This document shows positions 35,383 to 40,249 of a stretch of DNA of 51,692 nt, in pieces. The stretch is from an uncultured Eggerthellaceae bacterium (GTDB lineage: Bacteria > Actinomycetota > Coriobacteriia > Coriobacteriales > Eggerthellaceae). How positions within the stretch are numbered: the stretch's first letter is position 1; each line of letters begins with the position of its first letter. Made by a program: the position numbers and the translations under genes. The notes below the pieces were generated by a model. The model was not told the DNA's origin. It saw only the letters and a list, made by a program, of their open reading frames with translations, and did no database searches. The stretch spans positions 1-51,692 of the forward strand of contig CANODU010000007.1 in assembly GCA_947565185.1 (NCBI GenBank). The letters are read 5' to 3'.

Positions 35383-37209
35383 CTATCTTCCTTCTGAACC
35401 GAAGCGCAAGGGCCTTCGTTGATACAAGCCTGCATCCTCAAATCCCAAGCGGCGGTAATAGGCACGCGTGCCCACAGCGCTGATAACATTCACGGCATCA
35501 TAGCCCGCATCGTGGGCAAGCTGGCAGGCGCGCTCAACGAGACGCGTCCCCAACCCAAGGTGCTGGTTGCCCTCCTTGGCCTCATGGATCTTGGAAGTGC
35601 GGCCATAGATGTGCACCTCGCGGATCATAGCCTGACCCTCTCCCACCGGAATGCCTTCTGAGAGAGTATGCTGATCAGGCAGGGACAGGCGCAGAAAGCC
35701 TGCAAGGCGGTCTTCGCCATCCACCCACTGCAAGAAGATCTCACGGGTGTTCGTCGTGTCATAGGCGGATGTGCGAAGGGTGAGCGTTGCAGGGTCTATG
35801 GCGCTCGTAGCCACCTCCCGCATGCGCATCTCGCGCACGGCGCGCTCCCCCGCCTTCTGGCACACATCCGCCTCCACCATCTGACGGAGATTCGTCTTCT
35901 TGCACCCCGTGACGATATCCTGTGAAGGGATATCGCGGATCATGCGAGAGATGCGCGTGTGCTCCGGCGTTGCCAACACGCACGCGGATAAGAGGCCCAC
36001 GAGCTCCTCTTCCCCATAGGGCTGCCACCTCCCCGCTTGGAAGCCTTCCGTCAGGCGCGCGCTGGCAACGAGAGCGCAGGGATAGAGCTTCACCTCATCG
36101 GGCATGAAGCGCTCATCTTCCATGAGCATGCGGTAGAGGCGCACGTCATCCTCAGGCGTTGAGCCCATGAGATTCGCCATCATGTGCACATGGGACTTGA
36201 ATCCGAAGAGTCGGATGAGCGCAAGGGCGCGCGCCACCTCATCCACGCTTCCGCCTCGACCATTCTGTGCGAGAATGGCATCGTCCAAGCTCTGGATGCC
36301 CACTTGGACCTTCGTGACGCCCATGTGTCGAAGCTCCGTGAGCGTCTGGACGCTCACCGTATCCGGTCGCGTCTCTACCACTAGCCCTACGCAGCGCGCG
36401 TGCGCATGCTCATTCGCGTGCTGCAAGCGCGCAAGCTCCTCTTCGGAGACATCCTCATCCAGTTGCGGAAGCGCAGCTTGCCGCAAAGGATCCAGAGCCT
36501 GGAAAGCGCATCGGTAGTCCATCATGCCCGCATCAACCGAATGCTGCAATTCATCCTGCAAGGCTTGGATCTGCGCATCGAAGGGCTCTCGTGCATCCTC
36601 GTAGAGCCTGCGCCGACGGCGCACCTCAGCCAAAGAGCGCTCTGTGCCCGCATCATCCAACGCGCGGAAGAGCTCGCATGAGAACCACGTGCGATAGCTC
36701 GCCGGGTAATCGAACCACGTCCCGCCCAACACGATGAGCTCGACCTTATCAATGTTGTGTCCCATGTTCGCCAGCGTCGTCAAACGCGCCGACACCTGCA
36801 GATACGGATCGAAGAAGCATCGCTCGGCACGCTGGCACGCAGGCTCGTCTGCGATGTAGCTCTTCGGCATGGAGATGTCATTGGGACAATAGATGCAATC
36901 ATTGCGGCAGGGCCACGGCTTCGTGAGCACCGTCACCGTGGCAACGCCCGATGCCGTGCGGCGAGGCTTGGCGCGCAAGAGCCTCATGAGCGCATCATCG
37001 GTGGCATCGTCAAGGCGAAGAGACGCGATGAGCGGGCTTCTCTCTTGCTTCTGCGCCTGATAGAACGAGAGCATCTGCTTCTTCGAGATGCGGCGCGAAG
37101 GGTCATCCAGATCCTTGCTATGGCGACGCAGGATGGCATCCAGCTCCCGATGGGTGAGCGTCTGCCCACACCTCATCTTGCATGCTATCTCTCTGAGCGC
37201 TTCTTCCAT
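35383..37209 (-). CDS. elp3: Bacterial Elp3, tRNA U34 carboxymethyl-modification enzyme (radical SAM + acetyltransferase)
   Basis: A 608-residue homologue of the Elongator catalytic subunit. The radical SAM domain has TVLTKPWPCRNDCIYCPN (C101, C105, C108) followed by MPKSYIADEPACQRAE, as in the structurally studied Dehalococcoides Elp3. The C-terminal GNAT/lysine-acetyltransferase domain holds IREVHIYGRTSKIHE and the acetyl-CoA loop QHLGLGTRLVE; AYYRRLGFE follows. Elp3 uses acetyl-CoA and radical chemistry to form cm5U34 in tRNA anticodons. The gene is divergent from a Trm9-like methyltransferase, with 26 bases between the start codons. TATAAT lies 12 bases before the ATG, so the mRNA may be almost leaderless. 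Confidence 0.93.
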   Translation of the reverse strand: MEEALREIACKMRCGQTLTHRELDAILRRHSKDLDDPSRRISKKQMLSFYQAQKQERSPLIASLRLDDATDDALMRLLRAKPRRTASGVATVTVLTKPWPCRNDCIYCPNDISMPKSYIADEPACQRAERCFFDPYLQVSARLTTLANMGHNIDKVELIVLGGTWFDYPASYRTWFSCELFRALDDAGTERSLAEVRRRRRLYEDAREPFDAQIQALQDELQHSVDAGMMDYRCAFQALDPLRQAALPQLDEDVSEEELARLQHANEHAHARCVGLVVETRPDTVSVQTLTELRHMGVTKVQVGIQSLDDAILAQNGRGGSVDEVARALALIRLFGFKSHVHMMANLMGSTPEDDVRLYRMLMEDERFMPDEVKLYPCALVASARLTEGFQAGRWQPYGEEELVGLLSACVLATPEHTRISRMIRDIPSQDIVTGCKKTNLRQMVEADVCQKAGERAVREMRMREVATSAIDPATLTLRTSAYDTTNTREIFLQWVDGEDRLAGFLRLSLPDQHTLSEGIPVGEGQAMIREVHIYGRTSKIHEAKEGNQHLGLGTRLVERACQLAHDAGYDAVNVISAVGTRAYYRRLGFEDAGLYQRRPLRFGSEGR

Positions 37210-37220
37210 ATGCTTGAGGA

Positions 37221-37227
37221 TTATACT
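37221..37227. promoter_or_regulatory. Overlapping divergent -10 boxes between elp3 and the methyltransferase gene
   Basis: The same seven bases give TATAAT on the minus strand (37226-37221) and TATACT on the plus strand (37222-37227). Transcription from either should begin within about 5 bases of the respective start codon (ATG at 37209; GTG at 37236), so both messages may be leaderless. The -35 regions match the consensus poorly. Confidence 0.45.
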
Positions 37228-37235
37228 TTCATGCC

Positions 37236-37988
37236 GTGGATGGACAGGCCAGACAGATCTCCCGGATCACGCGCGGATTCTACGAGAAGCACGCTGCGTC
37301 GTTCTCGCAGACGCGCCAGCGCGCTTGGACCGGCTGGCAACGGCTTGCTGTGATCATGCGCGCGAGAGATGCACCGACGACCGTCTTGGATGTTGCCTGT
37401 GGCAACCAGCGCTTCGAGCGCTTCTTGGCCCAGGAAGGACTCATACCCGACACAGTCTTTGCCGTCGATGCCTGCGAAGCTCTCTTGGCCACCTCGGTGC
37501 CTGAGATGCCCCAAATAGAGCACGTGCAGGCAGATATCTTGGAGCTCTTGGATGCGGGATGCGGCTTCAAGGATCTGGGGGTTCCTGCGTGCAGCCTCAC
37601 TGTCTGCTTCGGATTCATGCATCATGTGCCCACCGCCCAGACCAGACACGTTCTCTTAGAACAGCTCTTGGCTGCCACTCAGCCAAAGGGCATCTGCGCG
37701 CTGAGCTTTTGGCAGTTCCAAAGAGATGAGAAGCTCTGGCGCAAGGCCGCTGTGGCAACGAAGGACGCATGCGCTCGCTTCGACATAGGGCTTGCCAATG
37801 CTGGCGATGCGTTCTTGGGCTGGCAAGATGCGGCGGATGCCTTTCGCTTCTGCCACGCTTTCTCTGACGATGAGGTGGACACCTTGCGTAAGGACGCCGA
37901 GTGCTTGGGCGCACGTACGTTGGATGATTTCCGCGCCGACGGCAAGCACGGCGACCTGGACCGCTATCTCATATTCGAGGTCTGCTGA
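37236..37988 (+). CDS. Class I SAM methyltransferase, Trm9/ALKBH8-like
   Basis: A 250-residue methyltransferase. Motif I is TTVLDVACGNQRFERFL. The N-terminus, FYEKHAASFSQTRQRAWTGW, resembles the characteristic opening of the eukaryotic Trm9/ALKBH8 methyltransferases (vY-e-ia-hFs-TR--pW), and SFWQFQRDEKLW recalls their distal region. Those enzymes methylate cm5U34 of tRNA to mcm5U34. Being divergent from elp3, which makes cm5U, it is a good candidate for the next step; this is inference. The GTG start at 37236 has no good ribosome-binding site. It ends in TGATG with the SpeE-like gene. Alternative: a generic methyltransferase with another substrate. Confidence 0.75.
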   Translation: MDGQARQISRITRGFYEKHAASFSQTRQRAWTGWQRLAVIMRARDAPTTVLDVACGNQRFERFLAQEGLIPDTVFAVDACEALLATSVPEMPQIEHVQADILELLDAGCGFKDLGVPACSLTVCFGFMHHVPTAQTRHVLLEQLLAATQPKGICALSFWQFQRDEKLWRKAAVATKDACARFDIGLANAGDAFLGWQDAADAFRFCHAFSDDEVDTLRKDAECLGARTLDDFRADGKHGDLDRYLIFEVC

Positions 37989-38758
37989 TGGGCTTTCTGG
38001 ACAAGCTGCTATCGCGCCGCAGCTACGACACGATGTTCGGACGCGCGCATGTCATCGTGATGCCCGCATCCGATGGACGGCGCGTGCGCATCTTAGAACT
38101 TGGCGGCACGTTCCAGAGCGCCAGTTTCGAAGGCAGCGCGTGGGCAGAACTGCCGTTCACCTACTTCAAGGGCTTCGATGCCATCTTCCAGGCGAAGCGA
38201 GCAGGCAAGCCCATGGGATCGGTGCTCCTCTTGGGTGGGGGCGGCTTCGCCTGGCCGAAGCACGCGCTCACCGAACATGACGACCTGCATCTTGATGTCG
38301 TGGAGATCGATCCTGTCGTCGTAGACATCGCGCGGAAGCATTTCTATCTTGATCGCCTTGAGCACCATCTTGTGCAGGCAGGCACGTCTGAGCGGCTTCG
38401 CATCTCCATTGATGACGCGTCCCGCTTCCTTCTGGAATGCTCGGATGTCTATGACGCCATCATCAATGACCTCTTCCAAGGGCGAACAACGCCTGAATCC
38501 ACTTCGACCGATGCCTTCTTCGCCCTGGTCAAGCACCATCTATCACCTGGTGGCATCTATGCGCAGAATATCGTCACCGATCTGACGCGCGAGGGAGGAC
38601 GCACCTTGTTCGCTCTGATGGCGAAGCTTGAGGAGACGTTCCTGCATGTATGGGCCGTGGATGCAACGGATCCCGAATTCGGCGGCGCCGATAATTACAT
38701 CATCATGGCATCAGATGCTGACTATCCGTTCGACGGATGCATGGACTGCAGCGGATGA
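37988..38758 (+). CDS. Spermidine synthase-like methyltransferase-fold protein
   Basis: A 256-residue protein with the polyamine-synthase fold. The nucleotide-binding loop reads SVLLLGGGGFAWPKH where true spermidine synthases have LGGGDG; VVEIDPVVVDIARKHF follows, and YDAIINDLFQGRTTPES corresponds to the active-site region. The change in the glycine loop makes genuine aminopropyl transfer doubtful. It starts within the stop of the Trm9-like gene (TGATG), so the two are made together. Downstream is a REP-like element plus H1 hairpin. A substrate cannot be named. Confidence 0.75.
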   Translation: MGFLDKLLSRRSYDTMFGRAHVIVMPASDGRRVRILELGGTFQSASFEGSAWAELPFTYFKGFDAIFQAKRAGKPMGSVLLLGGGGFAWPKHALTEHDDLHLDVVEIDPVVVDIARKHFYLDRLEHHLVQAGTSERLRISIDDASRFLLECSDVYDAIINDLFQGRTTPESTSTDAFFALVKHHLSPGGIYAQNIVTDLTREGGRTLFALMAKLEETFLHVWAVDATDPEFGGADNYIIMASDADYPFDGCMDCSG

Positions 38759-39409: not shown

Positions 39410-40249
39410 CTATTCATAGGAGACGCTGGAATTGTTGACCAGCCAGGAAAGCGCCGCTTCCCTCCGGGCGAATACAGCCGCCTCATCAGCCTTGTCCTGG
39501 TCGATCAACTGCTGATAGATCTGCTGGCGTTGGGCGGCGTCATCCCCGGGCATCTGAGCGATGATCTGATCCTCATCAAGCTCGATGTCCAGATGATTCG
39601 CCAGGGCATCGATAGCGCACATCACGCGCAGCGCATCATCGGGCATGCCTTCCATCCGGTCAGCCGGATCAGGCTCCTCCACCAAGCGCTTGGCAAGCTC
39701 CGCCAGCACGATGTCCGGGAAGTGCGGGTCATCCTTGGCCATATCAGGCAAGCCGAATTGTGCAGCAACGCCCTGGCGAAACTCCTCCAGATTCGTTGCC
39801 GGCGCGAAGTGCTCGGTGATGAAGGCATCGGTCAGCTCAGGAGAGACGCTGCGAAGGATCTTCTCCACATCCACCTCCATGGTGAGCGAGGAATGGTCCC
39901 CCTCTTTCGCCAAAGGCATCTTGATCTTCGCATTCACAGATCTCGTCTGCCCCGCCTTCACCCCGATGAGCTCGTCATCGAATGTCTTTGGCATCTCTCC
40001 CGCGCCTACATGATAGACAGAGTGCTGCATGATGAAATTCGAGGCCGGATTGCCATCGAGCGCGGCATCGCGCGTGGTGACCACGATGTGATCCCCTGGC
40101 AGCACGCCCCGATCCTCTGCCACCTCATGGAACTCCGCGAACGGCTCCATGAGCTTTTCTATCTGGGCATCCACTAAGCTTGAAGGCACCTGCGGTTTGG
40201 GCAGCTTCACGTGGACGGGTTCATAGCTTGAAAGCGTGTATTTCGACAT
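39410..40249 (-). CDS. Trigger factor paralogue lacking the ribosome-binding domain
   Basis: A 279-residue protein whose start, KYTLSSYEPVHVKLPKPQ, aligns with residues about 115-135 of the full-length trigger factor in this window (YELTSYEPVHIKVPPFQ). It has the PPIase-like region (LPGDHIVVTTRD, TFDDELIGVKAGQT) and a shortened helical C-terminal domain, but nothing of the N-terminal ribosome-docking domain. The ATG at 40249 is preceded by AAGGAGAG, so the short form is not a fragment. It is the last gene of a tight operon with MoxR-type ATPase, VWA and LRR genes (11-base gap). A dedicated chaperone or isomerase for that system is my inference. Confidence 0.8.
   Translation of the reverse strand: MSKYTLSSYEPVHVKLPKPQVPSSLVDAQIEKLMEPFAEFHEVAEDRGVLPGDHIVVTTRDAALDGNPASNFIMQHSVYHVGAGEMPKTFDDELIGVKAGQTRSVNAKIKMPLAKEGDHSSLTMEVDVEKILRSVSPELTDAFITEHFAPATNLEEFRQGVAAQFGLPDMAKDDPHFPDIVLAELAKRLVEEPDPADRMEGMPDDALRVMCAIDALANHLDIELDEDQIIAQMPGDDAAQRQQIYQQLIDQDKADEAAVFARREAALSWLVNNSSVSYE

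Follow-up and report, generated by a model that had tools for sequence, protein, structure and literature searches.

A divergent gene pair in an uncultured Eggerthellaceae bacterium likely encodes a two-enzyme route from U34 through cm5U to mcm5U, in which Elp3 and a Trm9-like methyltransferase fill the place of MnmE-MnmG without a recognizable Trm112. The pair lies within a stretch of 51,692 nucleotides, which is referred to here as the window (Table 1). Beyond this genome, it is likely that many Coriobacteriia, gut and oral genera included, as well as members of other Actinobacteriota classes make mcm5U34, and probably mcm5s2U34, through a self-sufficient Elp3/Trm9 system that has Elp3 as its sole Elongator subunit and no recognizable Trm112, and that replaces MnmEG; mcm5U would then not be a signature of eukaryotes and archaea. 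We infer the substrate, the product, the order of the steps and the role in decoding from what could be computed, namely homology, adjacency, co-occurrence, the absence of MnmG, MnmE and CmoB, and the presence of MnmA.

Table 1. Features of the elp3-methyltransferase locus, with positions in the window
Feature	Position	Strand	Remarks
elp3 (radical SAM + GNAT tRNA U34 carboxymethyl-forming enzyme, Coriobacteriia subtype)	35383..37209	-	608 aa, ATG start; TIGR01211, PDB 5l7j, alignment of 19 Elp3
Divergent intergenic spacer	37210..37235	.	26 bases between start codons; from the sequence
Trm9-like class I SAM methyltransferase gene, putative tRNA cm5U34 carboxyl methyltransferase	37236..37988	+	250 aa, GTG start
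Spermidine-synthase-like gene	37988..38758	+	PF01564 E 6.9e-12; start overlaps methyltransferase stop (ATGA)

The preliminary description had recognized a 608-aa Elp3, with radical SAM and acetyltransferase domains, and a divergent gene for a 250-aa methyltransferase 26 bases away. Its coordinates agree with ours, and the Elp3 assignment holds, as the protein passes the family threshold of TIGR01211 (416.6 bits, cut-off 350) and matches solved bacterial and archaeal Elp3 across both domains (PDB 5l7j, E 7.8e-88). Alignment with DmcElp3 and relatives places the radical SAM cluster cysteines at C101, C105 and C108 and shows the GNAT acetyl-CoA/YYR motifs to be present (QHLGLG; YYRRLGF). Residues 187-260 (window 36430-36651), a segment of about 65-75 residues, are unmatched in DmcElp3 and represent an insertion specific to the class, and the linker Zn cysteines are missing from the window Elp3 and from the other class proteins in the alignment of 19 Elp3. 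These cysteines have been reported for bacterial and archaeal Elp3; since eukaryotic Elp3 is also without them, they are not defining for Elp3 overall. The Elp3 proteins of Actinobacteriota outside the class are of the standard form, with the linker Zn cysteines kept (CxCIRC) and scores of about 600 bits. The methyltransferases divide into class and non-class types along the same line, which suggests that Elp3 and the methyltransferase diverged together as a pair.

The GTG start of the methyltransferase lines up with the ATG or GTG starts of its relatives. By eye, a -10-like hexamer, TATACT, can be seen at 37222-37227, ending 8 bases ahead of the GTG; this hexamer was absent from the listing of a two-hexamer promoter scan. 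Given its distance from the start codon, it is possible that the methyltransferase transcript is leaderless. Further along the window, a 279-aa trigger-factor-like protein is encoded on the minus strand at 39410-40249, which matches the tig profile at positions 106-264 only (80 bits against a cut-off of 180), all of the first 105 profile positions being unmatched.

The identity of the methyltransferase is less readily apparent from the single protein. When searched alone against Pfam and NCBIfam it returned generic models only (Methyltransf_23, E 1.5e-6), and as a single query it matched nothing in the PDB; because such searches are uninformative, a family profile was needed to test the resemblance to Trm9/ALKBH8 that had been noticed by eye. 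The class-family profile, compared with 177,635 PDB sequences, placed Yarrowia Trm9 (5cm2) first with an E-value of 2.1e-7 (next 9.2e-6). Adding the distant relatives strengthened the match to 4.9e-17 (next 2.4e-12), now aligned through the C-terminal RYxH, and the distant-group profile alone again had 5cm2 first (E 1.9e-20). The class and distant families are themselves related over their full length (profile comparison, E 9.8e-26), and hhalign of the methyltransferase family gave 4.9e-12 for yeast Trm9 against 2e-7 for CmoM.

The reverse search used the yeast Trm9 sequence that had also served for hhalign. Checked against published residue numbers, it has R29, H115, R241, Y243 and N271 at exactly those positions (PMC5372719). 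With this query, the Elp3-linked methyltransferase came out on top in each of the four non-class genomes tested, with E-values from 2e-15 to 2e-21, and also in one genome of the class (G044). In the window's genome the Elp3-linked protein was the sole listed match, at an E-value of 0.195 that counts against the Trm9 reading, and elsewhere in the class there were several genomes in which a different methyltransferase scored equally well or better, with weak E-values.

Mutation of these five residues in yeast Trm9 impairs both tRNA binding and catalysis (PMC5372719), and four of the positions are conserved in the bacterial family. The opening motif FYxxxAxSFSxTRQxxWxGW is almost invariant, with Y16, F23, R27, W31 and W34 identical in 110 of 110 relatives; R27, H129 and R204, which correspond to R29, H115 and R241 of the yeast enzyme, are likewise invariant in all 110 class proteins. 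In place of Y243 the window protein has C206, a position occupied by Cys in 108 and by Ala in 2 of the 110 class proteins, and by Tyr in a distant relative (L076). This is a change at one of the five studied positions and is not taken as defining. At the position of N271, 109 of the 110 proteins have Asn. The exception is the window protein itself, whose Asp242 (codon 37959-37961) could be a natural variant, a sign that this copy is impaired, or a mistake in the assembly. Both the Cys for Y243 and the Asp of the window protein count against the proposed route.

Structure and phylogeny are less decisive. The AlphaFold model of the methyltransferase (pLDDT 96.0, pTM 0.92) has a class I SAM methyltransferase fold, for which Foldseek ranked METTL6 highest and Trm9, represented by a shorter chain of 205 residues, 18th, a result counted against the Trm9 reading. 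In the structure comparison, NTMT and glycine methyltransferases scored as high or higher, and Trm9 was missing from the VIA list. The modeled fold is generic and does not single out Trm9, and was given no weight. The preliminary description had looked to a tree that could group the protein with non-tRNA methyltransferases, and the outcome is divided: on an L-INS-i alignment with the Trm9 loop trimmed, the family formed a clade with Trm9 (support 88/88), but on an automatic alignment this grouping was not recovered, although a constrained Trm9 grouping was not rejected there (p-AU 0.154). In that first tree the family instead fell with CmoA/CmoB, connected by long branches, a placement that we do not trust. 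Tree support for the Trm9 grouping is therefore moderate and alignment-dependent.

The association with Elp3 provides a further line of evidence. We surveyed 298 Coriobacteriia genomes from 125 genera, counting the methyltransferase at E<=1e-10, and found both genes in 171, the methyltransferase only in 0, Elp3 only in 4, and neither in 123, giving totals of 171/298 for the methyltransferase and 175/298 for Elp3. Each gene occurs in 70 of the 125 genera, and the 70 must be the same for both, because Elp3 is present wherever the methyltransferase is. Fisher tests on such data ignore relatedness, and only the raw counts serve as evidence here. None of the four Elp3-only genomes is a clear exception. 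The methyltransferase is cut by a contig end in one (G032), and in another (G199) Elp3 begins about 417-418 bases from the contig start, so that there is no room to see a neighboring gene. In the third (G039; L229 2533-4300) both genes are truncated, the methyltransferase C-terminus and Elp3 residues 255-601 being left in a still divergent arrangement, as if the two had decayed together; in the last (G096) a methyltransferase was not found on the 6.1-kb contig. Two genera are mixed, g12 with one member having both genes (G134) and one neither (G112), and g45 with four members having both and one neither (G056), indicating that the pair is gained or lost jointly even at short range.

Gene order is similarly conserved. 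Among the 112 class genomes with both coordinates listed, the genes are divergent within 8 kb in 104 (in 90 of these within 1 kb), and 4 have a tandem adjacent pair. A degenerate-pattern scan of all genomes gave at least 80 named loci, those listed all belonging to Coriobacteriia or near relatives; when these were fetched independently, Elp3 was seen in 78 and was divergent in 71, the two loci without it beginning at contig ends. In a sample of 296 genomes from across the phylum, the methyltransferase was found in 22 (profile threshold E<=1e-15) and Elp3 in 23, the two sets being identical but for the genome with the truncated pair. Six of the genomes with the pair lie outside Coriobacteriia, in other Actinobacteriota classes, and their methyltransferases share 20-22% identity with the window protein; where contigs were long enough (L074, L075, L076, L078), elp3 and the methyltransferase gene were again divergent neighbors. 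Recurrence of the arrangement across the class and in other classes argues that it is not due to chance. The preliminary description had held that such a route would be unusual in a bacterium and suggested a survey of elp3 neighborhoods in Coriobacteriia. The survey bears out the link to Elp3 (171/171), with divergence within 1 kb in 90/112 genomes and divergent pairing in 71/78 named loci, but it shows the pair to be typical of the whole class and not a local oddity.

These data also bear on whether the protein could be a generic methyltransferase for another substrate, such as a small molecule or a protein, with its adjacency to elp3 a matter of frozen gene order. The generic families returned by single-sequence searches and the generic fold would fit this, but it is made very unlikely by joint presence and absence within the two mixed genera, joint truncation in one genome, persistence of the pair in other classes although identity there is down to about 22%, and class-wide invariance of the Trm9 residues. 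The Trm9 resemblance first judged by eye is thus upheld by profiles, in that three of them put 5cm2 at the top of the PDB and hhalign scores Trm9 better than CmoM, and by the key residues and the co-occurrence and adjacency with Elp3. We have good confidence in calling the methyltransferase Trm9-like.

The content of other wobble-modification genes provides a setting for such a pathway. MnmG was found in only one of the 298 class genomes; this single case (L088; G071:C8:4785-6362) possibly reflects transfer or contamination. MnmE was above cut-off in none of 99 class genomes; its matches in 98 of the 99 all fell below cut-off, lay largely in the GTPase domain and often came in pairs within a single frame, the pattern expected of Der/EngA, and were rejected as MnmE. 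CmoB was likewise above cut-off in 0/99 and is absent from the window's genome. With these three missing, none of the alternative routes to C5 modification of U34 that were looked for is available, and the absence of MnmG and MnmE leaves a role for the elp3-methyltransferase pathway to fill. MnmA is present (300.9 bits), and among the U34 tRNAs found in the draft genome, which is 92% complete, are Lys-UUU, Gln-UUG, Arg-UCU, Thr-UGU, Ser-UGA, Leu-UAA and Leu-UAG.

The lack of CmoB also makes it extremely improbable that the protein is a CmoM-like enzyme acting on the carboxyl of cmo5U34 rather than cm5U34, its proximity to elp3 reflecting no more than a shared wobble theme. CmoM catalyzes the same type of reaction, its side chain being a similar one, and is found among the structural matches (Z 17.9). 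However, CmoB is required for cmo5U, the weaker hhalign match to CmoM leaves out the N-terminal motif, and a clade with CmoM is disfavored (p-AU 0.05 and 0.08).

Trm112 (PF03966) was not found in the window's genome. Within the class, PF03966 gave weak matches only, in 13 of 99 genomes and nearly all inside long frames; the same search had matches in 8 of 14 control genomes. Judging from these searches, the methyltransferase seems to work without Trm112. We therefore use the term Trm9-like and do not speak of a Trm9-Trm112 complex; given the missing Trm112 and the replaced Y243, the protein is a candidate member of the Trm9 family proper.

We suggest that the locus represents a minimal bacterial version of the eukaryotic and archaeal Elongator-Trm9 route. 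Elp3 alone would use radical SAM chemistry and acetyl-CoA to place a carboxymethyl group onto C5 of U34, yielding cm5U34, and the Trm9-like enzyme would then esterify the carboxyl with SAM to give mcm5U34. MnmA may supply the 2-thio group in Lys, Gln and Glu tRNAs, leading to mcm5s2U34. The pair would in this way stand in for the missing MnmE-MnmG, with a methyltransferase acting without a recognizable Trm112.

A variant of this scenario has the methyltransferase modify the wobble base after Elp3 has acted, but with an end product other than mcm5U, for example through conversion of the ester to an amide (ncm5U), or with another carboxymethyl derivative. A yeast trm9 mutant is described as accumulating ncm5U and ncm5s2U (PMC3110198), from which it appears that the steps past cm5U are not fully settled. 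The spermidine-synthase-like gene, co-directional with the methyltransferase gene in the window, could also be taken in this sense; it is probably an operon partner of the methyltransferase in the window's genus, its role in the pathway being only a candidate one. Nevertheless, we consider a product other than mcm5U unlikely, as this is the only extra gene that could add a step and most of the named loci have no homologue of it close to the pair, and as the active-site residues, being Trm9-like, favor methylation of a carboxyl. Other loci of this genus do have a homologue close by, and several Collinsella loci (L104, L105, L119, L129, L137 and others) have one on the downstream side of elp3.

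Formation of cm5U by Elp3 alone is established for one archaeal Elp3, and bacterial Elp3 has been called rare (PMC6367351; PMC13315578; PMC7694415). Archaeal elp3-trm9 clusters were predicted in 2008, in a paper that described mcm5U as typical of Eukarya (PMC2584109). A 2017 review stated that, for methyltransferases that depend on Trm112, Trm9 among them, no significant homologue had been detected in bacterial genomes (PMC5372719), and a 2020 review of modified nucleosides has none of cm5U, mcm5U and mcm5s2U assigned to Bacteria (PMC7694415). Within the open-access literature covered, we found no report of an elp3-Trm9-like pair in bacteria. Probably, bacteria without the standard bacterial pathway make this "eukaryotic" base as well. 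If so, the statements on mcm5U and Trm9 in PMC7694415, PMC5372719 and PMC2584109 need changing, and culturable species offer a direct test of how the wobble U is modified in bacteria lacking MnmEG. Structural and enzymatic studies would then also have at their disposal the simplest Elongator-Trm9 system known, one that has neither Elp1/2/4-6 nor Trm112.

Several known systems come close to the pair. Both MnmE-MnmG, the bacterial cmnm5U34 pathway, and CmoM, the cmo5U34 carboxyl methyltransferase of Escherichia coli, share aspects of the proposed function: the former modifies U34 at C5 in tRNAs for the same codon boxes, but by unrelated chemistry and with both proteins absent here, while the latter makes a methyl ester on a U34 carboxyl side chain, but its similarity is weaker, the FSxTR motif is not in the alignment and the CmoB pathway is missing. 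Eukaryotic Trm9 requires Trm112, and the failure to find it here counts against the proposed route. The Trm9-Trm112 and ALKBH8 enzymes (in eukaryotes, Trm9-Trm112 also in archaea) include the top PDB profile match and the functional partner of Elp3, and have in common with the bacterial family the FSxTRxxPW opening, the HH motif, the C-terminal D-x4-W and R-[YF]-x-H-x-[FY], and, for Trm9, four of the five tRNA-binding and catalytic residues. In contrast to yeast Trm9, the window methyltransferase is bacterial, has about 17% identity and carries Cys for Tyr243, and its family is without the long insertion before the RYYH motif and without a recognizable Trm112. Elp3 of Dehalococcoides mccartyi (PDB 5l7j; PMC6367351) is similarly a stand-alone radical SAM and GNAT protein with the cluster cysteines and the acetyl-CoA motif, whereas the Coriobacteriia form adds about 74 residues (187-260) and is without the three linker Zn cysteines; in the literature surveyed, no Trm9 partner is reported for Dehalococcoides. 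The archaeal Elp3 and Trm9 cluster of Sulfolobus solfataricus, also predicted in Haloferax (PMC2584109), resembles the present locus in having two clustered enzymes without Elp1/2/4-6, but those archaea have Trm112, whereas here the two genes form a divergent pair in Actinobacteriota that lack MnmE and MnmG.
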